Shown piece by piece: positions 9,105-18,435 of a stretch of DNA of 24,826 bases. The notes under the pieces are model-generated. The model was given only the letters and a program-made list of their open reading frames with translations. It was not told where the DNA came from and searched no databases. Numbering within the stretch: the first letter of the stretch is position 1; each line of letters begins with the position of its first letter. The stretch comes from a virus. The stretch covers positions 1-24,826 of IMG/VR virus record IMGVR_UViG_3300030102_003002. One strand, 5' to 3'. A program made the position numbers and the translations under genes.

Positions 9105-9235
9105 TTGTTTGGTACCTCTCGGTTTTCTAGAATTGCTAATTGGTTTTGTAATTTAAGTTTGATAACTTTCTCATCAGCATGTGTGACTAAGAATAGAAGT
9201 TTTCGATACTCGTTTGGAGTTAGATTATTTTTCAT
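9101..9235 (-). CDS. Small basic hypothetical protein (44 aa)
   Basis: MKNNLTPNEYRKLLFLVTHA... is one long helix, probably a coiled coil (KVIKLKLQNQLAILENRE). GGAGGA Shine-Dalgarno lies inside the end of the PcfJ-like gene and the ATG overlaps its stop by four bases (ATGA). Not recognised. Confidence 0.7.
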   Translation of the reverse strand: MKNNLTPNEYRKLLFLVTHADEKVIKLKLQNQLAILENREVPNK

Positions 9236-11391
9236 TTGGATTCCTCCTCTGGTTGTAGTTGAGTTGTGATTAATTGCAGGGCACGTCCGATACCGTGCTC
9301 TACAAACTGTTTCTCTTCATCGTTCAATCTTTTGTTAGCTATGTCAGCTATCTGATCTACGAGAAGAGTGCCGTCACTTAGCTTGAGCTGAATGGTGAAC
9401 CTAGGTTTGTGGTCAACCATAGCCAAGACAATGAAGTAACGTTTCTGTTTAATGGAGTTTGCATAGCTGGAGTTACCGACGCAATTACGTACGGCTCTAC
9501 CCCAGTCAGCCAACTGGTGTGATGTTATTGGTTGGAAGAAGGTCATGACTGAATCTTCATGTTCATGCCAATCTATTAGTTCACCTCTTTCATCAGCAAA
9601 TGCCTCTTTCCATGTAACTTTGATGGGCTTGGCAAATAGATCCTGTGGCAAATTAAAGTTCTCATTGTTCTCTTTCCATTGCATTCCCATTACATGATCA
9701 TGCAGTTCAGTTAAACGCCAACGACGTGGAGAATCTAGCTTCCTTAGTTTTGGTTTAGGTTCTAATTTATCCCATCTTTCCATTACTTCATGCTGTGATC
9801 TGACAACAGATTCGAGCATATTTACAGTGTCTTTCCATTCTCTGAAATCCCAGACTTCTCTACTCATACGAGTTTCATAATCATAGTTACTGTACCTCCT
9901 GTCCTTTTCTGCTTCCATCTCTTCAGTACGTTGTTCACTGTATTTCTTTATAGCCTCTAGAAAAGTTTTTACAGGCATACGACCGAAGTATTCTCTTTTC
10001 TTGGAAGCAATCTCCATTACTATCTCTTCAGTATTGGCATAACGATAATAACCAATGTCATTCATGCGGGGTGGTACGCTCACAGTATAGAAGTATTGTT
10101 CATAACTCTGGAAATAATCAACAGGAGTATCTGGCCAGACATCCAATACATAGTCGATCCATCTAATCAGATGATGTACACGTTCAATGGGAGATGTAAC
10201 CCAATGCATGCTTTTGTTATCGGATTCTTCTAATCTTTTGTTGGCAGATTCAAGTGACTTGTGCAACATCTTTCTAAAGAAAGGTTGCTCTATCCAGCCA
10301 TCGGGTTTCCATAGAACATGACCGATGTTATGTCTGCGTTCATTAAGATTAAGAGGAACAGTATTGCTCAAACGGAACAGTAAAGACTTGAGACTTTCCA
10401 CATCCCATTTCTTTGTTGTTTTTAGACAGAGATAACCTTTGCGGTCAGCGTCATGAGCATGCGTCCAGTTAGCCTGTCTTTCCTCATAGTTCTTCTTGAT
10501 CACATAACCCAAGGTGTTCTGTTCAGGAAGAATACGATTAAACAATTCACTGTAAGAAGGATCACTGCTACGTCCATACTTTTCTGATTCGGGACTGACC
10601 CAGTGAGGTATGGTGCCAGCCAAGCATCTTCCCCAGTCTTTTAGCTCTGATTTCAAGTATCTTGACTTGTCATGCCAAGTTTCTATGCTTCTGTGATGGA
10701 ATATACCACTGGTCAGGTTGTAAGTATGTCCCTGTCCGATCATTTGTTTGGTTACATACACTGTCTTGTAACGCCACCAAGATCTATCTACTTTTATACG
10801 TTCACAATCATTCCAGCTGTAACCTGAGAATAGATTTGGGTCATCATTATCAACGTACTGTCGGTGGTATGGAACACAAAAGACTTTGCGATTTTCACCG
10901 TCAGCATACATCTCACATTCGAAACGAGTTCTGTTTGCTTTAGTTTCCTTGTAAGCAAAACTATAACCGTATACATATTTATTGCTATGTGGTATCCATA
11001 GACATGTCCACATGCCTTCGAAATGATACAGAAGTATTCTTCGCTGTATTCTCATCCCTGACGAATTGTGTATCAACTTATCAGACTTTTTAAATGTCAG
11101 AGGTTTACCGTTAGGGTATGCCGGATTACCATCTTTATCATTGGGAGGATACTGTGTATTTATATATCTTTGATTAAGATCACTGAAAGTGATTCTTTTA
11201 ATCAGCTCTTCTCTATTGAAATTCTTTGGCAGTACATCGTTCGGAATCAATTGTTCCAATGGAGGAAGACCAAGAGAAAAAGGTTTGGACTGTCGTCTGA
11301 TTACTCTTTTCTTCTCTGATTCTTTTGCACGACGCACCTGATCATAAGGTGTGAGTTTCTCTTTCAAGACACTCGGAAGTTGAAATTCCAT
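9232..11391 (-). CDS. PcfJ-like protein
   Basis: A 719-residue protein, the largest of the leftward arm. Its C-terminal region (about 624-705) carries the PcfJ-like signature: HQLADWGRAVRNCVGNSSYA, then YFIVLAMVDHKPRFTIQL and a GTLLVDQIADIANKRL block, with the conserved RNC-V-G Cys near 637. PcfJ was first named from an enterococcal conjugative plasmid, and homologs are common in phages; the function is unknown. The N-terminal part is polar and aromatic-rich with no recognised domain; it may be a separate module. There is no Shine-Dalgarno; a one-mismatch copy of the ATTCAATTCA decamer lies 14 bases upstream and a perfect hairpin further up. It heads the coupled run leading to the AcrVA2-like gene. 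Confidence 0.8.
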   Translation of the reverse strand: MEFQLPSVLKEKLTPYDQVRRAKESEKKRVIRRQSKPFSLGLPPLEQLIPNDVLPKNFNREELIKRITFSDLNQRYINTQYPPNDKDGNPAYPNGKPLTFKKSDKLIHNSSGMRIQRRILLYHFEGMWTCLWIPHSNKYVYGYSFAYKETKANRTRFECEMYADGENRKVFCVPYHRQYVDNDDPNLFSGYSWNDCERIKVDRSWWRYKTVYVTKQMIGQGHTYNLTSGIFHHRSIETWHDKSRYLKSELKDWGRCLAGTIPHWVSPESEKYGRSSDPSYSELFNRILPEQNTLGYVIKKNYEERQANWTHAHDADRKGYLCLKTTKKWDVESLKSLLFRLSNTVPLNLNERRHNIGHVLWKPDGWIEQPFFRKMLHKSLESANKRLEESDNKSMHWVTSPIERVHHLIRWIDYVLDVWPDTPVDYFQSYEQYFYTVSVPPRMNDIGYYRYANTEEIVMEIASKKREYFGRMPVKTFLEAIKKYSEQRTEEMEAEKDRRYSNYDYETRMSREVWDFREWKDTVNMLESVVRSQHEVMERWDKLEPKPKLRKLDSPRRWRLTELHDHVMGMQWKENNENFNLPQDLFAKPIKVTWKEAFADERGELIDWHEHEDSVMTFFQPITSHQLADWGRAVRNCVGNSSYANSIKQKRYFIVLAMVDHKPRFTIQLKLSDGTLLVDQIADIANKRLNDEEKQFVEHGIGRALQLITTQLQPEEESK

Positions 11392-11418: not shown

Positions 11419-11437
11419 CTGCGTGTAGGATACGCAG
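11419..11437. promoter_or_regulatory. Hairpin CTGCGT / ACGCAG in leader of PcfJ-like gene
   Basis: A perfect 6-bp stem with a 7-base loop sits in the 75-base gap between the 111-aa gene and the PcfJ-like gene. No T-run follows on the minus strand, so it is not a canonical terminator; it could be a leader structure, a processing site or an operator. Confidence 0.45.
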
Positions 11438-11466
11438 CCCCCATAAGATAAAAACTATCTACACAC

Positions 11467-12863: not shown

Positions 12864-13286
12864 TTACCACCAAGAGGTGTAGATAACTTTGTAACCTTTG
12901 CTTAGAGCTTTCTCTGCTCTGTCACAGAATTCGATATCGGTTTCTCTGTAGTATTCATCTGCATTATCACCGAAGAAAAATCCTGTGGTGTCACCATGTC
13001 CACCGTTAAGAGATCTGTTGTTGATATCTAAACGCAAGCGTTGAATATCTTCTAGAGTTAGTTCTACCTCTTCATTGTTGAATGGATCAGCTAGATAGGT
13101 TTGATTGCTGTAACCCTCTCCGGTTTTTGGATCAGGATTCTTGGAGTCACCATACTGTTTAGTTCTCCACAGGCGTTCCATCCATCCCTGTAGGTTGGGA
13201 TGTTTACGCCATGACACGAGTGGTTCATCTGACTCATCGTTTTTAGCAGCAGCAGGTCTGCTGTAAGTCATTTGATCTAGTCCCAT
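12864..13286 (-). CDS. Phage MGLD-family protein
   Basis: A 140-residue protein of a widespread but uncharacterised phage type: MGLD at the very start, WRKHPNLQGWMERLW at 26-40, a central Leu/Asp-rich helix (LTLEDIQRLRLDI), TGFFFGDNADEYY at 101-113 and an aromatic end YTSWW. Homologs usually keep the MGLD start, the 'RKH...W' box, the 'FFFG' box and the Trp-terminated C-terminus. Function unknown. The exact decamer ATTCAATTCA lies 11 bases upstream on the minus strand, with no Shine-Dalgarno. It follows a hairpin after the OB-fold gene. Confidence 0.8.
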   Translation of the reverse strand: MGLDQMTYSRPAAAKNDESDEPLVSWRKHPNLQGWMERLWRTKQYGDSKNPDPKTGEGYSNQTYLADPFNNEEVELTLEDIQRLRLDINNRSLNGGHGDTTGFFFGDNADEYYRETDIEFCDRAEKALSKGYKVIYTSWW

Positions 13287-13297
13287 AATCTTAGTAA

Positions 13298-13307
13298 TGA
13301 ATTGAAT
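13298..13307 (-). promoter_or_regulatory. Repeated leader decamer ATTCAATTCA
   Basis: Exact copy of the decamer, 11 bases before the MGLD-family start. See the copies at 4061 and 14196. Confidence 0.35.
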
Positions 13308-13349
13308 AATGACCTGGCATCATCAGGGCAGGGCGGTCAGTTCCTACCG

Positions 13350-13365
13350 ACTCCCCGAAGGGAGT
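13350..13365. terminator. Hairpin with UUCG tetraloop after OB-fold gene
   Basis: On the minus strand ACTCCC-TTCG-GGGAGT forms a 6-bp stem with a stable UUCG tetraloop, 9 bases past the end of the OB-fold gene. No U-tract follows, so it may act as an mRNA 3'-end stabiliser or a weak terminator. A second shorter stem (CGGT/ACCG) follows. Confidence 0.55.
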
Positions 13366-13373
13366 TTCGCCAG

Positions 13374-13814
13374 TTACTTGGCAGCTTCTAACTCAGCTTG
13401 CTCGAGAGCTTCTTCTTGTTCGATTTCAGCTCTTAACTCTTCAAGCTCAGTTTCAGATAGCTTTGGTGGTGCAACTTGTGCAGGCTTAGTAGATACACGC
13501 TCGGTGTAAGCATAATTGAGTTTGATCTCAGGGTGCTTACGTGTTTTGTTCACACCATCTTGGGTGTAATGAGAGCTAATACCTTCTGGACTGAGGTCAA
13601 TGTCACCATGAACAACTACACGTAAGCCAGTAAGGTTGTCTCCATTTTGGACAGCCTTGAGCATACCGTTGTTGTCGGTGTATTTGACACGGATACTGTT
13701 CTTCTTGCTGTCTTCGCAAGCGACAGTAACAGCAAGGAAGGTATCGTACTTGTCTTTAACACCATCGACGACTTTGACATTGATGATGTTGCCAGTAATA
13801 GTAGCTTTCTGCAT
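13374..13814 (-). CDS. OB-fold ssDNA-binding-like protein with acidic tail
   Basis: A 146-residue protein. The first 105 residues alternate as beta strands (QKATITGNIINVKVV, YDTFLAVTVACEDSKKNSIR, LRVVVHGDIDLSP, HPEIKLNYAYTERV) in an OB-fold-like order. Residues 115-146 form a strongly acidic Glu-rich tail (ETELEELRAEIEQEEALEQA), the hallmark of ssDNA-binding proteins that recruit partners, as in T7 gp2.5. It is distinct from the SSB-like fragment at the window start, so two OB proteins may be encoded. A single ATG start is clear, no Shine-Dalgarno. Function is inferred. Confidence 0.6.
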   Translation of the reverse strand: MQKATITGNIINVKVVDGVKDKYDTFLAVTVACEDSKKNSIRVKYTDNNGMLKAVQNGDNLTGLRVVVHGDIDLSPEGISSHYTQDGVNKTRKHPEIKLNYAYTERVSTKPAQVAPPKLSETELEELRAEIEQEEALEQAELEAAK

Positions 13815-13860
13815 TTGAATTACAGTTGATTAGGTGGTGCCCATCTCCACGGGGGGCAAG

Positions 13861-13899
13861 GACGAGGGAGGGAATCGAACCCTCCACTGGTGAACCAGT
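13861..13899 (-). other. tRNA 3'-end relic or attachment-site-like sequence
   Basis: On the minus strand a perfect variable-arm-like hairpin (ACTGG-TTCA-CCAGT, 13886-13899) is followed by one base and a perfect T arm, GAGGG-TTCGATT-CCCTC (13868-13884), then CCTCGTC in the place of the 3' acceptor strand. This is the 3' half of a class II tRNA (Leu/Ser/Tyr type). No matching 5' acceptor strand (G-A/G-C/T-G-A/G-G-G), D arm or anticodon arm is found upstream, so it is not a complete tRNA. It could be a decayed tRNA or a tRNA-derived attachment site. Confidence 0.5.
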
Positions 13900-13916
13900 T
13901 CCAACATCTCGACTAT

Positions 13917-13997
13917 CTATCTCCCATACGCTCCAACGTTCTTAAGGAATATATAGAGCAGGATGGTGATACAGATGATGACGATGAGTGTAGTCAT
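13917..13997 (-). CDS. 26-aa single-span membrane miniprotein
   Basis: MTTLIVIICITILLYIFLKN plus VGAYGR: nearly the whole chain is one hydrophobic span with a short basic end. The ATG overlaps the stop of the 62-aa gene by four bases (ATGA), indicating coupling. Same length and plan as the miniprotein at 6847-6927, without sequence similarity. Its role is unknown; phage membrane miniproteins can serve lysis, superinfection exclusion or other roles. Confidence 0.6.
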   Translation of the reverse strand: MTTLIVIICITILLYIFLKNVGAYGR

Positions 13998-14182
13998 AAC
14001 ATGAAGTCAGGATCACTGAGTACAGTTAAACCGCATTGCATAACTTTGGCAAGATCCTTGTCACACTCTGGCATATCTTGAATCTGGAAAGACCAGAACA
14101 GGAAGTTATCTGGATTGTGACCTAACTGTTGTACCTCAGATAATATCTGGGTAAGTTCTGGAGTTAGTGCAGCAAGAGACAT
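13994..14182 (-). CDS. Small hypothetical protein (62 aa)
   Basis: MSLAALTPELTQILSEVQQL then an acidic helical body ending LSDPDFML. AGAGG Shine-Dalgarno six bases before the ATG, and the decamer ATTCAATTCA just upstream. Coupled to the 26-aa membrane miniprotein. Not recognised. Confidence 0.65.
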   Translation of the reverse strand: MSLAALTPELTQILSEVQQLGHNPDNFLFWSFQIQDMPECDKDLAKVMQCGLTVLSDPDFML

Positions 14183-14195
14183 AGTTACCTCTGGA

Positions 14196-14205
14196 TGAAT
14201 TGAAT
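14196..14205 (-). promoter_or_regulatory. Repeated leader decamer ATTCAATTCA
   Basis: Exact third copy, 13 bases before the ATG at 14182, here combined with an AGAGG Shine-Dalgarno between decamer and start. Confidence 0.35.
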
Positions 14206-14212
14206 TGATTTA

Positions 14213-14228
14213 TGAGGGGAATCCCTCA
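14213..14228. terminator. Hairpin TGAGGG / CCCTCA
   Basis: A perfect 6-bp stem with a 4-base loop lies between the 82-aa gene and the 62-aa gene. No T-run follows on the minus strand, so termination is only a possibility. Confidence 0.4.
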
Positions 14229-14250
14229 GTCTGCCTCGAGAGAAGCAGAA

Positions 14251-14269
14251 GGAGAGAATCGAATACTCC
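14251..14269 (-). other. Second, diverged tRNA T-arm-like sequence
   Basis: Nineteen bases match the T arm at 13867-13885 at 16 positions, and include TTCGATTC. The T stem is imperfect (four pairs, then mismatches). It lies just past the stop of the 82-aa gene. A weak ATGT/ATAT stem with a 7-base loop containing TTT lies inside that gene's end, but is not convincing as an anticodon arm. Likely a tRNA relic. Confidence 0.35.
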
Positions 14270-14274
14270 AATAT

Positions 14275-14523
14275 TTAAATCACATACCGTTCGGAGCGAA
14301 GCCAACCGGTACCTTCTTTAAACTCTTGGATTACAACACCTTTCATACGAGTAGCTTTGAGCCACTTCCAGGCCCCAACTATTGAGGCATCTCTTCCTTT
14401 ATATGCTTTAACTAGCACTCCAGAAGAGTCAAATTCGGTGCCATCATGGATAGCTTTATCCTCATCAATAAAGAATTGAAAAGATGAACCATCGGGATGT
14501 AAATAGCGTCTAGCTTCTAACAT
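14275..14523 (-). CDS. Small hypothetical protein (82 aa)
   Basis: MLEARRYLHPDGSSFQFFID... with a C-terminal half rich in Lys, Trp and Gly (WKWLKATRMKGVVIQEFKEG). Looks like a small beta-plus-helix domain. No Shine-Dalgarno; the ATG follows an AT-rich leader with repeated TTTA. Not recognised. Confidence 0.65.
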   Translation of the reverse strand: MLEARRYLHPDGSSFQFFIDEDKAIHDGTEFDSSGVLVKAYKGRDASIVGAWKWLKATRMKGVVIQEFKEGTGWLRSERYVI

Positions 14524-14615
14524 GATTGATAAATAAATAAATAGTATCGAGTACTCAAAAATTTAAATCCCATACACATCTGCGAGTGGGCAAATGGTGT
14601 ACAGGATCTAATTTA

Positions 14616-14690
14616 CGAGCGACCAACGGGAGCGAGTGGCAGCCAGTTGTTATATACAACAGCAGCTCGCGTTAGCGAGCGGGGTGCACG
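14616..14690. repeat. GC-rich repeat, copy 1, with internal hairpins
   Basis: Begins with CGAGCGACCAACGGGAGCGA (14616-14636, 21 bases with one mismatch to 15092-15112) and ends with GGGGTGCACG, as copy 2 does. Between them this copy holds extra sequence with two perfect hairpins: GTTGT-TATAT-ACAAC and GCTCGC-GTTA-GCGAGC (14665-14680). It overlaps the last codons of the 52-aa gene. The GC-rich composition contrasts with the AT-rich surroundings. Confidence 0.6.
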
Positions 14691-14830
14691 TCAAGCACTT
14701 CTGCTGCCCGATGCATCTTCTGAGATACATACTTACGACTAGTGTCCAGCCAGGCGGTGCCGGCTGAACGTGTCTTAACGTACATAGGCTTGAAGTCAGC
14801 CTTGAGACCTTTAATAGTGTTGGAAAACAT
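14672..14830 (-). CDS. Small basic hypothetical protein (52 aa)
   Basis: MFSNTIKGLKADFKPMYVKT followed by RSAGTAWLDTSRKYVSQKMH and a short end. The protein is basic and well balanced in codon use; a longer reading frame on the same strand covers the same bases but gives a Cys-rich unlikely product, so this frame is preferred. The ATG follows TTTATTGCC, a leader type shared with the PcfJ-like gene (TTTGCC before ATG). The stop lies inside the GC-rich repeat. Not recognised. Confidence 0.6.
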   Translation of the reverse strand: MFSNTIKGLKADFKPMYVKTRSAGTAWLDTSRKYVSQKMHRAAEVLDVHPAR

Positions 14831-15313
14831 GGCAATAAATGTTAACGATGTAATGATTTGGTTAAGCTCGAAGACGTAACCTGAGTAGTAGCAACGTTTG
14901 TTACAGGTGATTACAGTTCTATCTCGGCTCTGCTGAGCGGAGGATCTTGACCTAATTTCGTGCGGGAATCAAGGGAAACTCGACGAAAACTCGGCGAAAG
15001 ATCAAAGAAAGTAACTAATTGTAAACAAATGTTACTATCATTAACTCTATTCTTCTAATCCCATAGATATATGCCGAAGTTAAGTACCTAGCGAGCGACC
15101 AACGGAAGCGAGCGGAGCGAGGGGTGCACGGTACTTCTTTTTTTTCTATACGGTATGTGCAACGGGCGGGTGGGTGGAGAAGAGTCGAGTAATTTTGTAC
15201 CCTATTTGGAGCTATAAGGAGCCGATTTTGTAGTAAAAAACCCTAATTAGCCCAAAAAATCACCCAAAAGTGCCGACCTTCAGGTGATTAAAGTTTCGAT
15301 TATTAGATATTAG
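14831..15313. other. Gene-poor hub with repeats and inverted repeats
   Basis: About 480 bases with no credible gene. Contents: a loose inverted repeat GTAAC (14877) to GTTAC (14900); a GCTC-TGCT-GAGC hairpin with flanking CTC/GAG; a tandem 11-mer at 14979-15000 (9 of 11 identical); an AGTAAC...GTTACT inverted repeat (15010-15036); the GC-rich repeat copy 2 within a long stem and T-run; a G-rich stretch near 15164-15180; and ggagc direct repeats near 15210-15222. It lies close to the divergence point of the two arms and could be a replication origin, a regulatory hub or an RNA-coding region. No function is proven. Confidence 0.5.
15082..15145 (+). ncRNA. Candidate structured RNA end with terminator; repeat copy 2
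   Basis: AAGTACC (15082-15088) and GGTACTT (15130-15136) form a perfect 7-bp stem that closes over the GC-rich repeat copy 2 (15092-15130), and the stem is followed by C and eight T on the plus strand. That is the layout of a structured RNA 3' end or of a large intrinsic terminator reading rightward. No plus-strand gene lies upstream within 200 bases, so either it ends a small RNA or it stops stray transcription before the virion module. Confidence 0.35.
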
Positions 15314-15526
15314 TTATTTTTCTTTGCTTTTCTTAAATTTACCGGCTGCTTTTGCCGCTTTACTGAATGCTTCCTCATCTGGAACTTGAAATGCCAGTTC
15401 TTTCTTAGCATTTGTAACAAAATCACGTACTTCCAGGGAGTCTTTACCCTGTGCTGCCATGTCTAAAGCTTTGTTTTTAATAGCTTCTAGCCCATCAACT
15501 TTATTTTGGCGGGATTCAACATCCAT
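15314..15526 (-). CDS. Small Lys/Ala-rich hypothetical protein (70 aa)
   Basis: MDVESRQNKVDGLEAIKNKA... is a highly helical, charged protein with a Lys-rich end (KAAGKFKKSKEK). It may bind nucleic acid, by composition only. Start coupled by TAATG to the 20-aa frame before it. It is near the head of the leftward arm. Not recognised. Confidence 0.65.
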   Translation of the reverse strand: MDVESRQNKVDGLEAIKNKALDMAAQGKDSLEVRDFVTNAKKELAFQVPDEEAFSKAAKAAGKFKKSKEK

Positions 15527-15588
15527 TATTGGTATTTTCTAAGTAATTTCCCTGATTTAATGCTATCACGAGTAGATTTGTTACTCAT
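15526..15588 (-). CDS. Possible 20-aa basic leader peptide
   Basis: The frame MSNKSTRDSIKSGKLLRKYQ ends in a TAATG overlap with the 70-aa gene. It is basic and would be the first leftward gene, 37 bases from the first rightward gene. No Shine-Dalgarno; support is the exact coupling only. Confidence 0.35.
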   Translation of the reverse strand: MSNKSTRDSIKSGKLLRKYQ

Positions 15589-15625
15589 AGAATGGACAGA
15601 AGAGAAATGTGACGGCTAAGTGTAG

Positions 15626-16207
15626 ATGTCTTCCTCATATCAGGCACAATATTATTCACAACAGCCAGATAATAACAATCTGGGGGTTTTAGCAACTGGA
15701 ACCCTAGCAGGAGGTGGTCTTGCTACTCTTGCAGCTTTAACTTTGATGAGAAGAGGTAAAAATCTCTCTGCAACAACGGATCTTAGTCAGAAAGGTGCGT
15801 CTGCTATATCAAATGTAGCTGGAAAGAAATATACTGTAAAAAAACCAGGTCCAGTACCGCCTAGCACACCTGCAGAAAATGTATTTACTAATATTCCTGA
15901 AGGACAAACTCAACCTGTGGTAAGACCAGGTGATACTGTTCTAGCTCCAGGTAGATCTCTTCTGTCAGGACCGGCTTTATCTCGAGCTGGTAAACCTAAT
16001 GAACTTCCAAAACCTGTTGCAGGATCTATACAAGAAAGAGAAGCTCAAGATAATTTAAGAAGATATATAAGTACGGTACAAGCAGGGATATTAGCTAAAG
16101 ATGAAACGTATTATGCAGCACTTAAACAAGCTAAAGATTTAGGTATAGGAGTTCCTTTAGATCCGTCTATGAAACGTACAAATAAAGGCAATAAAAGAAG
16201 ATCATGA
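15626..16207 (+). CDS. Virion-type protein with membrane segment (193 aa)
   Basis: First gene of the rightward arm. A polar Gln/Tyr-rich N-terminus (MSSSYQAQYYSQQPDNNN) is followed by one Gly/Ala/Leu hydrophobic segment at 19-41 with a basic flank (MRRGKN). The rest is Pro/Gly/Thr-rich and probably extended, ending in a basic tail (KRTNKGNKRRS). It overlaps the 743-aa gene by four bases (ATGA). Position and composition suggest a virion or ejection protein; no family is recognised. Confidence 0.7.
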   Translation: MSSSYQAQYYSQQPDNNNLGVLATGTLAGGGLATLAALTLMRRGKNLSATTDLSQKGASAISNVAGKKYTVKKPGPVPPSTPAENVFTNIPEGQTQPVVRPGDTVLAPGRSLLSGPALSRAGKPNELPKPVAGSIQEREAQDNLRRYISTVQAGILAKDETYYAALKQAKDLGIGVPLDPSMKRTNKGNKRRS

Positions 16208-18435
16208 GTATTCAACAGGTATTAGCTGTTATAAAACAAGGAAATTCTGCTAGTTTCCCTAATCAGCAGGCTCAACGGGTCTTTACTAACTTGCGTCGTA
16301 ATCCACGCAATTCTATGGAGCAGATAAATATGTCTGCATCTATGGCTGATCAGTATCTACAGAGCCAAGTTACTCGTAATAAAGAATTTTTGAAGAGCCA
16401 AGATATACCAATGATGAAAGCTCCTTCTGTTGATGCAGGAGCTAATACTGCTTCTCTTCAGGCGACTGGGAAGGTTCTTCCTGATCAGGCTGAGTTAACG
16501 GCAACTGGGCAAGGATTTGTGAAAGAGAAACAAAACCTTCAGAACGCTGGTCTTCCTGGGAGTTCATTGGAAAATAATGTTAGTTCTGCTAGTGTAGCAG
16601 TTAATCAGCTAGCTGGGGTAAAAGATTTACAAAGAAACAGAGAACTTATACAACAAGAATTACAATACCAAGTAGACACAGGTAAGTTAAAAGTACCTAT
16701 AAGTAAGACTCTTAATCTTTCTAGTTCTAAAGCTTTAGCAGATGCATCTGGACAAAACAGAGTATTACAGACTGTTCCTCCTAGTCTTGTAGAAAAAGAA
16801 CTGGCTCGTTTATATCAAAAAGACTCTGGTAAATTAGCCGGTAAATATGGAATAGATAAGATTGAGCAAACACAACGTAAACAGAATCTACAATTATATA
16901 CTCTGACAGGTGATAAAAGACTGCTTAAGGATGTACCGCCAACTTCTATTCGTATGGCTGGACAGAATATATCAGTTCTCCCAGTAACCGATTTTACCTA
17001 CAATCCGAATATTAGAGCATTGACCAGCAGGCTTCTAGACAGTAAACCTGTTAAGGGAGAAGGAGGAAAGCTAATATATGGTCAAGGTAAGTTAGCTGAA
17101 TTATCGGATAGGACTGAAAAATTATATCAACTTAGAAGTAAGTTCCAAGAGTTAGGAGGTCAAACTGCAAAAGAAAAAATTGCTGGCATAGATACAGAGC
17201 TGAAAAAGATTGATAATTTTTATAAAGGATTACAAGAAAGAGGATTAGCTCTATCAACTACTGGTTATACAGGTGCTCCTTTTATAAGTGGAGATTCTCA
17301 GATAAGTTTAAAAGTACCGTCAGTAGGAGAATTAACTGGACCAAAGACCGCTGAACGTTTAGCTGAAAGAAAACAAAAAGCTAGAGCTAAACAGGATGAA
17401 TATCAAGCAACAGAGTTACCTAAACTTAGAGCTGAATATAAACAATTACAAATAAAAGAAACAGATTTGTTAAAAAAAGGTTATTCAACATCTTCACCAG
17501 AATATATAAGTAACAAAGCTAAGATGTTAAAAATATATAATCCAGCAGGAACTAAATTCAACAGAAGTAATCAGGATAAAGGAAGAGTAGCAGGTTTAAT
17601 ACGTACTAGTGAGGGATTCGCAAAAAATTATAATCAGAAACCTCCAGTTGAAGTTGGAGCTTATCAACAAGGTATAAGGTTATATGCAGAAACATATTCA
17701 CCAACTGGTTCAAAAGTTGGAACGGCAAAGGCAGGCACCGCTGGTGAAGGTGGACAGGTATCTATGCAGAATCTTTCTAGTCAACTTTCTATAAATCCTG
17801 CAACTGTACAAGTAAGACAGGAACGTAAGATTAAAGACACCAAATCAAAAGGTGGGGGAGGCAGGAATGTAGCTGAGTATGTTGGTGGAGAGATGGGTGA
17901 ACAGGAAGACACAGCCAGAGCTTTTATGGCTGAACTTTTAAATGCTCAGAAACGTTCTACCACAGGCACTTCAGTTAATAAGATGAACCCTAATGTTCTT
18001 TATACGAAAGCAAGACGTCCTCGTGTAACTGGCCGTGAATCTGTCGAAAACTTGTCTGGTGAACCTGCAGTGATCGCTTCTAACTTACAAGGTTATAGTT
18101 CTCCGAAAGGAACAGTTCAAAGGATAGTACAAGGAGGCACTACAGAAGCTGCAGGCATGAGAGACTATGATGTGGTGACAGGTAAAACACCTGAACAATT
18201 CCAAGGAGATAAAACTCAGGCTGGATATGTAAAAGATATTTATGGACTCCGTAAAGAGTCTTATCCAAAAGATGATCCTAAAATAAAACCATCTCAAATG
18301 GTTAGAGCAACAGGAGCACAAAATCAGAAAGCAAGTGAAAAAGCGAAGGAGATAATGCAGAGAGCACTGGAAATGAGTGAAGCTAAAAGAAGAGGTAGAA
18401 TTGAAGGGAAGCCTCAATTCTTCTACTTACCCTAA
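16204..18435 (+). CDS. Large virion-associated protein candidate (743 aa)
   Basis: A 743-residue, Gln/Lys/Ser-rich, hydrophilic protein with no hydrophobic segment. Central region about 300-430 has helical, charged stretches (ERLAERKQKARAKQDEYQAT, LPKLRAEYKQLQIKETDLLK) that could form coiled coils; the C-terminal 80 residues are basic (EKAKEIMQRALEMSEAKRRG). It is the longest gene of the arm and starts inside the 193-aa gene. By place and size it could be an internal virion protein or a scaffold-like component. No family recognised; function open. Confidence 0.7.
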   Translation: MSIQQVLAVIKQGNSASFPNQQAQRVFTNLRRNPRNSMEQINMSASMADQYLQSQVTRNKEFLKSQDIPMMKAPSVDAGANTASLQATGKVLPDQAELTATGQGFVKEKQNLQNAGLPGSSLENNVSSASVAVNQLAGVKDLQRNRELIQQELQYQVDTGKLKVPISKTLNLSSSKALADASGQNRVLQTVPPSLVEKELARLYQKDSGKLAGKYGIDKIEQTQRKQNLQLYTLTGDKRLLKDVPPTSIRMAGQNISVLPVTDFTYNPNIRALTSRLLDSKPVKGEGGKLIYGQGKLAELSDRTEKLYQLRSKFQELGGQTAKEKIAGIDTELKKIDNFYKGLQERGLALSTTGYTGAPFISGDSQISLKVPSVGELTGPKTAERLAERKQKARAKQDEYQATELPKLRAEYKQLQIKETDLLKKGYSTSSPEYISNKAKMLKIYNPAGTKFNRSNQDKGRVAGLIRTSEGFAKNYNQKPPVEVGAYQQGIRLYAETYSPTGSKVGTAKAGTAGEGGQVSMQNLSSQLSINPATVQVRQERKIKDTKSKGGGGRNVAEYVGGEMGEQEDTARAFMAELLNAQKRSTTGTSVNKMNPNVLYTKARRPRVTGRESVENLSGEPAVIASNLQGYSSPKGTVQRIVQGGTTEAAGMRDYDVVTGKTPEQFQGDKTQAGYVKDIYGLRKESYPKDDPKIKPSQMVRATGAQNQKASEKAKEIMQRALEMSEAKRRGRIEGKPQFFYLP

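Follow-up and report, generated by a model that had tools for sequence, protein, structure and literature searches.

Known Systems and the Setting of the Gap

In lytic phages, early control regions place promoters ahead of small, exchangeable takeover genes. The primary origin of T7 is built from promoters plus AT-rich DNA. In cyanobacteria, the sequence TTTTCCACA is the DnaA box (PMC4674748). For the S-EIV1-like cyanophages, no description of how the early genes are switched on was found in a limited literature search.

The locus considered here belongs to this group. The linear viral contig that holds it measures 29.7 kb, of which 24.8 kb (24,826 nucleotides) make up the whole stretch referred to as the window. 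When positions 13000–17000 were used as the query, Synechococcus phage S-EIV1 was the only DNA match among phage records, and the gene order around the region is common to the window and S-EIV1. For most of 46 IMG/VR loci, the family A DNA polymerase shares ~60–73% identity with that of the window. The genes of the window are split by strand, with leftward genes to the left of the region and rightward genes on the structural side.

The gap itself comprises 483 nt (14831–15313) between a 70-aa gene of unknown function (15314–15526, minus strand) and a 52-aa gene (14672–14830, minus strand). The first-pass annotation described this interval as gene-free, which holds, as the longest open reading frame wholly inside it encodes 32 aa or less and the interval aligns as noncoding in near relatives; no credible hidden small gene was identified there. 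The 70-aa gene, which borders the region, is kept in 31 of 44 relatives and adjoins the conserved element described below wherever both are seen. The 52-aa gene is the first leftward gene behind the region and shows 65% and 88% identity in the relatives L081 and L083, respectively; homology of its protein to the early-gene families of relatives was sought and not found. The gap had also been placed next to the divergence point, which is correct only to within one gene, since transcription orientation actually diverges further to the right, at 15527–15625. A conserved rightward ATAGAATG is found, in the window and its relatives, in this short spacer that separates the 70-aa gene from the structural operon; it resembles a late promoter when compared by eye and is likely the -10 element of one.

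A Single-Copy Element behind the 70-aa Gene

Behind the 70-aa gene, the relatives examined share one order of features, namely a terminator-like hairpin (in most), then Box A, and then Box B/C. The hairpin at the terminator position is a GC-rich CCGGGG...CCCCGG-T6 structure in most relatives. In the window, the probable transcription terminator of the 70-aa gene is AATCACC...GGTGATTTTTT (15254–15289, minus strand), the pairing of which was assigned by eye and was not picked up by a terminator scan. Box A, TTTTTTGGGCTAATTAGGG (15241–15259, minus strand), has a TTTGGG that is nearly invariant in the alignment of relatives, and the box is repeated in one genome (G023). An AT-rich stretch of variable length separates it from Box B. 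The single-copy conserved core, Box B/C, spans ~83 bp with the form AAATAGGGTACAAAATTACYYGAC.CTTCTCC...GTATAGAAAAAAAAGAA (15135–15217, minus strand).

Apart from the leave-out profiles and the recruitment of contigs by the leader LDR1, motif classes were assigned by eye and counted in the very sequences that had served to define them, and locus counts include near-duplicates unless stated otherwise. A Box B DNA pattern matched 34 viral contigs once each, and a Box B/C profile gave one strong match per genome in nine complete or near-complete genomes as well as in the window. The position of Box B/C is constant across S-EIV1 and the relatives examined, again with one copy per genome. A profile built free of the window lineage still recovered 15135–15217 (E 2.6e-16), and a profile with S-EIV1 left out recovered the S-EIV1 copy (E 1.3e-11). 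The segment 15186–15270 is 96.5% and 100% identical to L081 and L083, respectively, for which the corresponding values of the 70-aa gene are 79% and 83%. Two other views of the element were discarded. With one strong profile match per genome, Box B/C does not form a repeated promoter class, and the two pattern matches in bacterial genomes (L167 and L168), which are near-identical stretches, one of them inside a long reading frame, are attributed to chance, as the profile does not find the element there.

In S-EIV1 (KJ410740), the equivalent gap lies at ~44032–44705, with the 70-aa homologue AHV82204 as neighbour, Box B/C once on the same strand, and an LDR1-like leader further left. It differs from the window in that a palindrome sits directly behind Box C and in that the record annotates a small ORF (44548–44709, plus strand; L049) over the terminator/Box A side, which is probably spurious and not a gene.

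No conserved base pairs were found in the core on either strand, and its mean folding z-score is -0.35; therefore, Box B/C appears to act, and to be read, as DNA. By the same evidence, the reading in which the core itself encodes a noncoding RNA or a structured leader is already disfavoured and is the least probable of those considered. An Rfam search returned no match, and although hairpins in the downstream spacer are more stable than chance would predict (mean z -1.5, +182 to +302), the core shows none of this structure.

A packaging signal, at which the terminase would make its first cut, would suit a single-copy element, and the contigs that carry Box B/C do end more often than expected within 1 kb to its left (12 ends versus 2.0 expected, with 1 on the other side). 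However, these ends are scattered over 58–865 nt, near-complete contigs run through the site, and the terminase gene is ~10 kb away in S-EIV1. Moreover, the spacer is variable and rich in repeats, on which assemblies break, and structural genes are over-represented on short contigs. The enrichment to the left of Box B/C reflects either assembly breaks or DNA ends, and a pac site is considered improbable.

Leaders and Exchangeable Cassettes

The modules behind Box C in the relatives are all leftward, mostly less than 1 kb away and at most ~2.7 kb. They include a palindrome, GATACGAATTCGTATC, or DnaA-like TTTTCCACA boxes, a second promoter-like module termed module D, and the leaders LDR1, LDR2 or LDR3, which are placed just upstream of a start codon. 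In the window, module D, GAAATTAGG...TCCNCCGC...GATAGAACTGTAAT, lies at 14907–14970 (minus strand). It is present in single copy, and in relatives it too has leaders after it. A -10-like TATAAG was noted by eye ahead of the leader in many relatives.

When LDR1 was used as an independent bait for recruiting contigs, Box B/C was found on the same strand in nearly all of them, with LDR1 23–32 nt behind it in most. In 46 distinct loci, LDR1 starts 25–27 nt behind Box B/C in 40 cases, and the first ATG is found at 71–76 nt, likewise in 40; with duplicates included, LDR1 is close behind Box B/C in 70 of 142 loci. The position ~73 nt behind Box C is the start of three unrelated protein families. This spacing to the leader, together with the swapped genes, gives the pattern of a fixed control element with exchangeable gene cassettes behind it. 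Both variable stem pairs of LDR1 are Watson–Crick in all 73 rows, which are not phylogenetically independent, and the inner GCG/CGC pairs were set by the search pattern. Since the variable pairs hold with changes on both sides (C-G to A-T and T-A; T-A to C-G), LDR1 is taken to be an RNA.

The window lineage has no LDR1 cassette at the region, and a GC-rich repeat stands in its place. As Box B/C is kept without LDR1, in the window included, it is not only the promoter of the LDR1 leader and may do more than serve one promoter; either it influences module D from a distance or its role is a different one. An LDR1-type hairpin occurs elsewhere in the window, at 11419–11442 (minus strand), ~28 nt upstream of a PcfJ-like gene (9232–11391).

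Repeats and Short Motifs in the Gap

The short features for which the gap had been singled out in the first-pass annotation are mostly weak and mostly distinct from the conserved ones. A tandem 11-mer (ACTCGRCGAAA, two units, 14978–14999) is real; a tandem of at least 11 nt with no more than one mismatch arose in 0.3% of shuffles (P 0.003). However, it is local, as neither L081 nor L083 retains it, and it occupies a site where relatives carry the palindrome or DnaA boxes. The GC-rich repeat also exists, as two 24-nt copies of 92% identity, of which copy 1 (15092–15115) is variable and lies where many relatives have the LDR1 leader, but copy 2 (14616–14639) falls outside 14831–15313. GC-rich CGCTCACTGCGTTCGCT-type repeated units were seen in the same spacer of L155, L157, L163 and others. 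The G-rich tract is present at ~15160–15180, within the conserved Box B/C. The proposed TGTTAC half-sites amount to two copies (14899 and 15030) and are marginal, with a local P of 0.02 for a motif picked from among many possible ones, and the whole window contains 17 against 13.2 expected. The several inverted repeats were not recovered: a search for perfect 6-nt arms with loops of 3–12 nt gave no case, compared with 1.5 expected by chance, and inverted repeats of at least 12 nt were likewise absent.

A Probable Control Region versus a Possible Replication Origin

Two functions had been suggested for the gap, a master control region and a replication origin. The former is borne out by a single-copy, strongly conserved, leftward DNA element with adjoining promoter-like modules and 5′ leaders. 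We consider that the region probably controls the leftward early genes of an S-EIV1-like cyanophage, where the term early would follow from position and gene type. Judged from the sequence, Box B/C and module D are candidate promoters or activator sites, transcripts would start in the region, and a protein would bind at Box B/C. The leaders and genes after the region are all leftward. Like the early regions of lytic phages, the locus combines promoter-like modules, short leaders before small variable genes, and an operator-like palindrome. In contrast to them, the locus shows a lone conserved core in single copy instead of several similar promoters in a row, and no match to the sigma-70 -35/-10 consensus was found inside the region. 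Box B/C and module D each occur in single copy, which sets them apart from most phage promoter classes and counts against the control-region reading.

The leading alternative, which we regard as possible but rather unlikely, is that Box A–C forms a single replication start site, at which the Box A repeats and nearby AT-rich DNA would melt, possibly coupled to an early promoter as in T7. A single copy at a fixed place in noncoding DNA, conserved to an extreme even where the cassette behind it changes, would be expected of such a site, as would the variable-length AT-rich DNA that separates Box A from Box B, and these phages encode their own polymerase A, primase and SSB. Additionally, TTTTCCACA is ~60 times denser in the spacers of relatives (25 in 31.5 kb) than in whole genomes (10 in 767 kb). 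As in cyanobacterial oriC (PMC4674748), such boxes occur in the spacer of some relatives, in one to three copies; however, the window and most relatives have no DnaA boxes, several boxes fall inside genes or leaders (LDR3), and no dnaN neighbour was seen. The comparison with the T7 primary origin is similarly divided: both are gene-free and promoter-like with AT-rich stretches, whereas here a phage RNA polymerase promoter was not identified and GC skew leaves no mark at the site.

The GC-skew test, which the first-pass annotation had itself put forward, gave no support for the origin proposal. Across nine complete or near-complete genomes, the skew minimum lies 7–31 kb from the element, and the element, with a mean relative skew of 0.54, does no better than random points (0.49; P 0.72). 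Skew is a weak test of origins, because it also follows transcription in phages with strand-split genes. The rigid spacing from element to leader to start codon points instead to transcription. As a separate observation, the minimum lies on average ~13% of a genome length leftward of the element, towards the DNA polymerase gene, and in several of the nine genomes it lies ~9–19 kb to the left.

A still more tentative proposal joins the two functions. Box A–C would serve as both an origin and a switch for early transcription, present only once in each genome, and unrelated early genes would be exchanged behind it together with 5′ leader RNAs of a new class (LDR1–3).

Proposed Mechanism and Implications

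Under the control-region reading, transcription of the 70-aa gene would end at its terminator, and Box A with Box B/C would form a fixed linear DNA site that is read by a phage or host protein, which would drive or activate leftward transcription. Exchangeable cassettes would follow this site, comprising module D, a 5′ leader hairpin, a small early gene and, optionally, an operator in the form of a palindrome or DnaA boxes. That of the window lineage would consist of the GC-rich repeat, the tandem 11-mer, module D and the 52-aa gene.

The S-EIV1-like phages are represented here by dozens of environmental contigs, and a combined origin and switch, if true, would be found across a widespread phage lineage. 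The covarying leader hairpins may represent a new RNA motif. If the arrangement of a fixed element with exchangeable cassettes is correct, the element would mark the entry site of takeover genes in these phages and would provide a handle for finding such genes.
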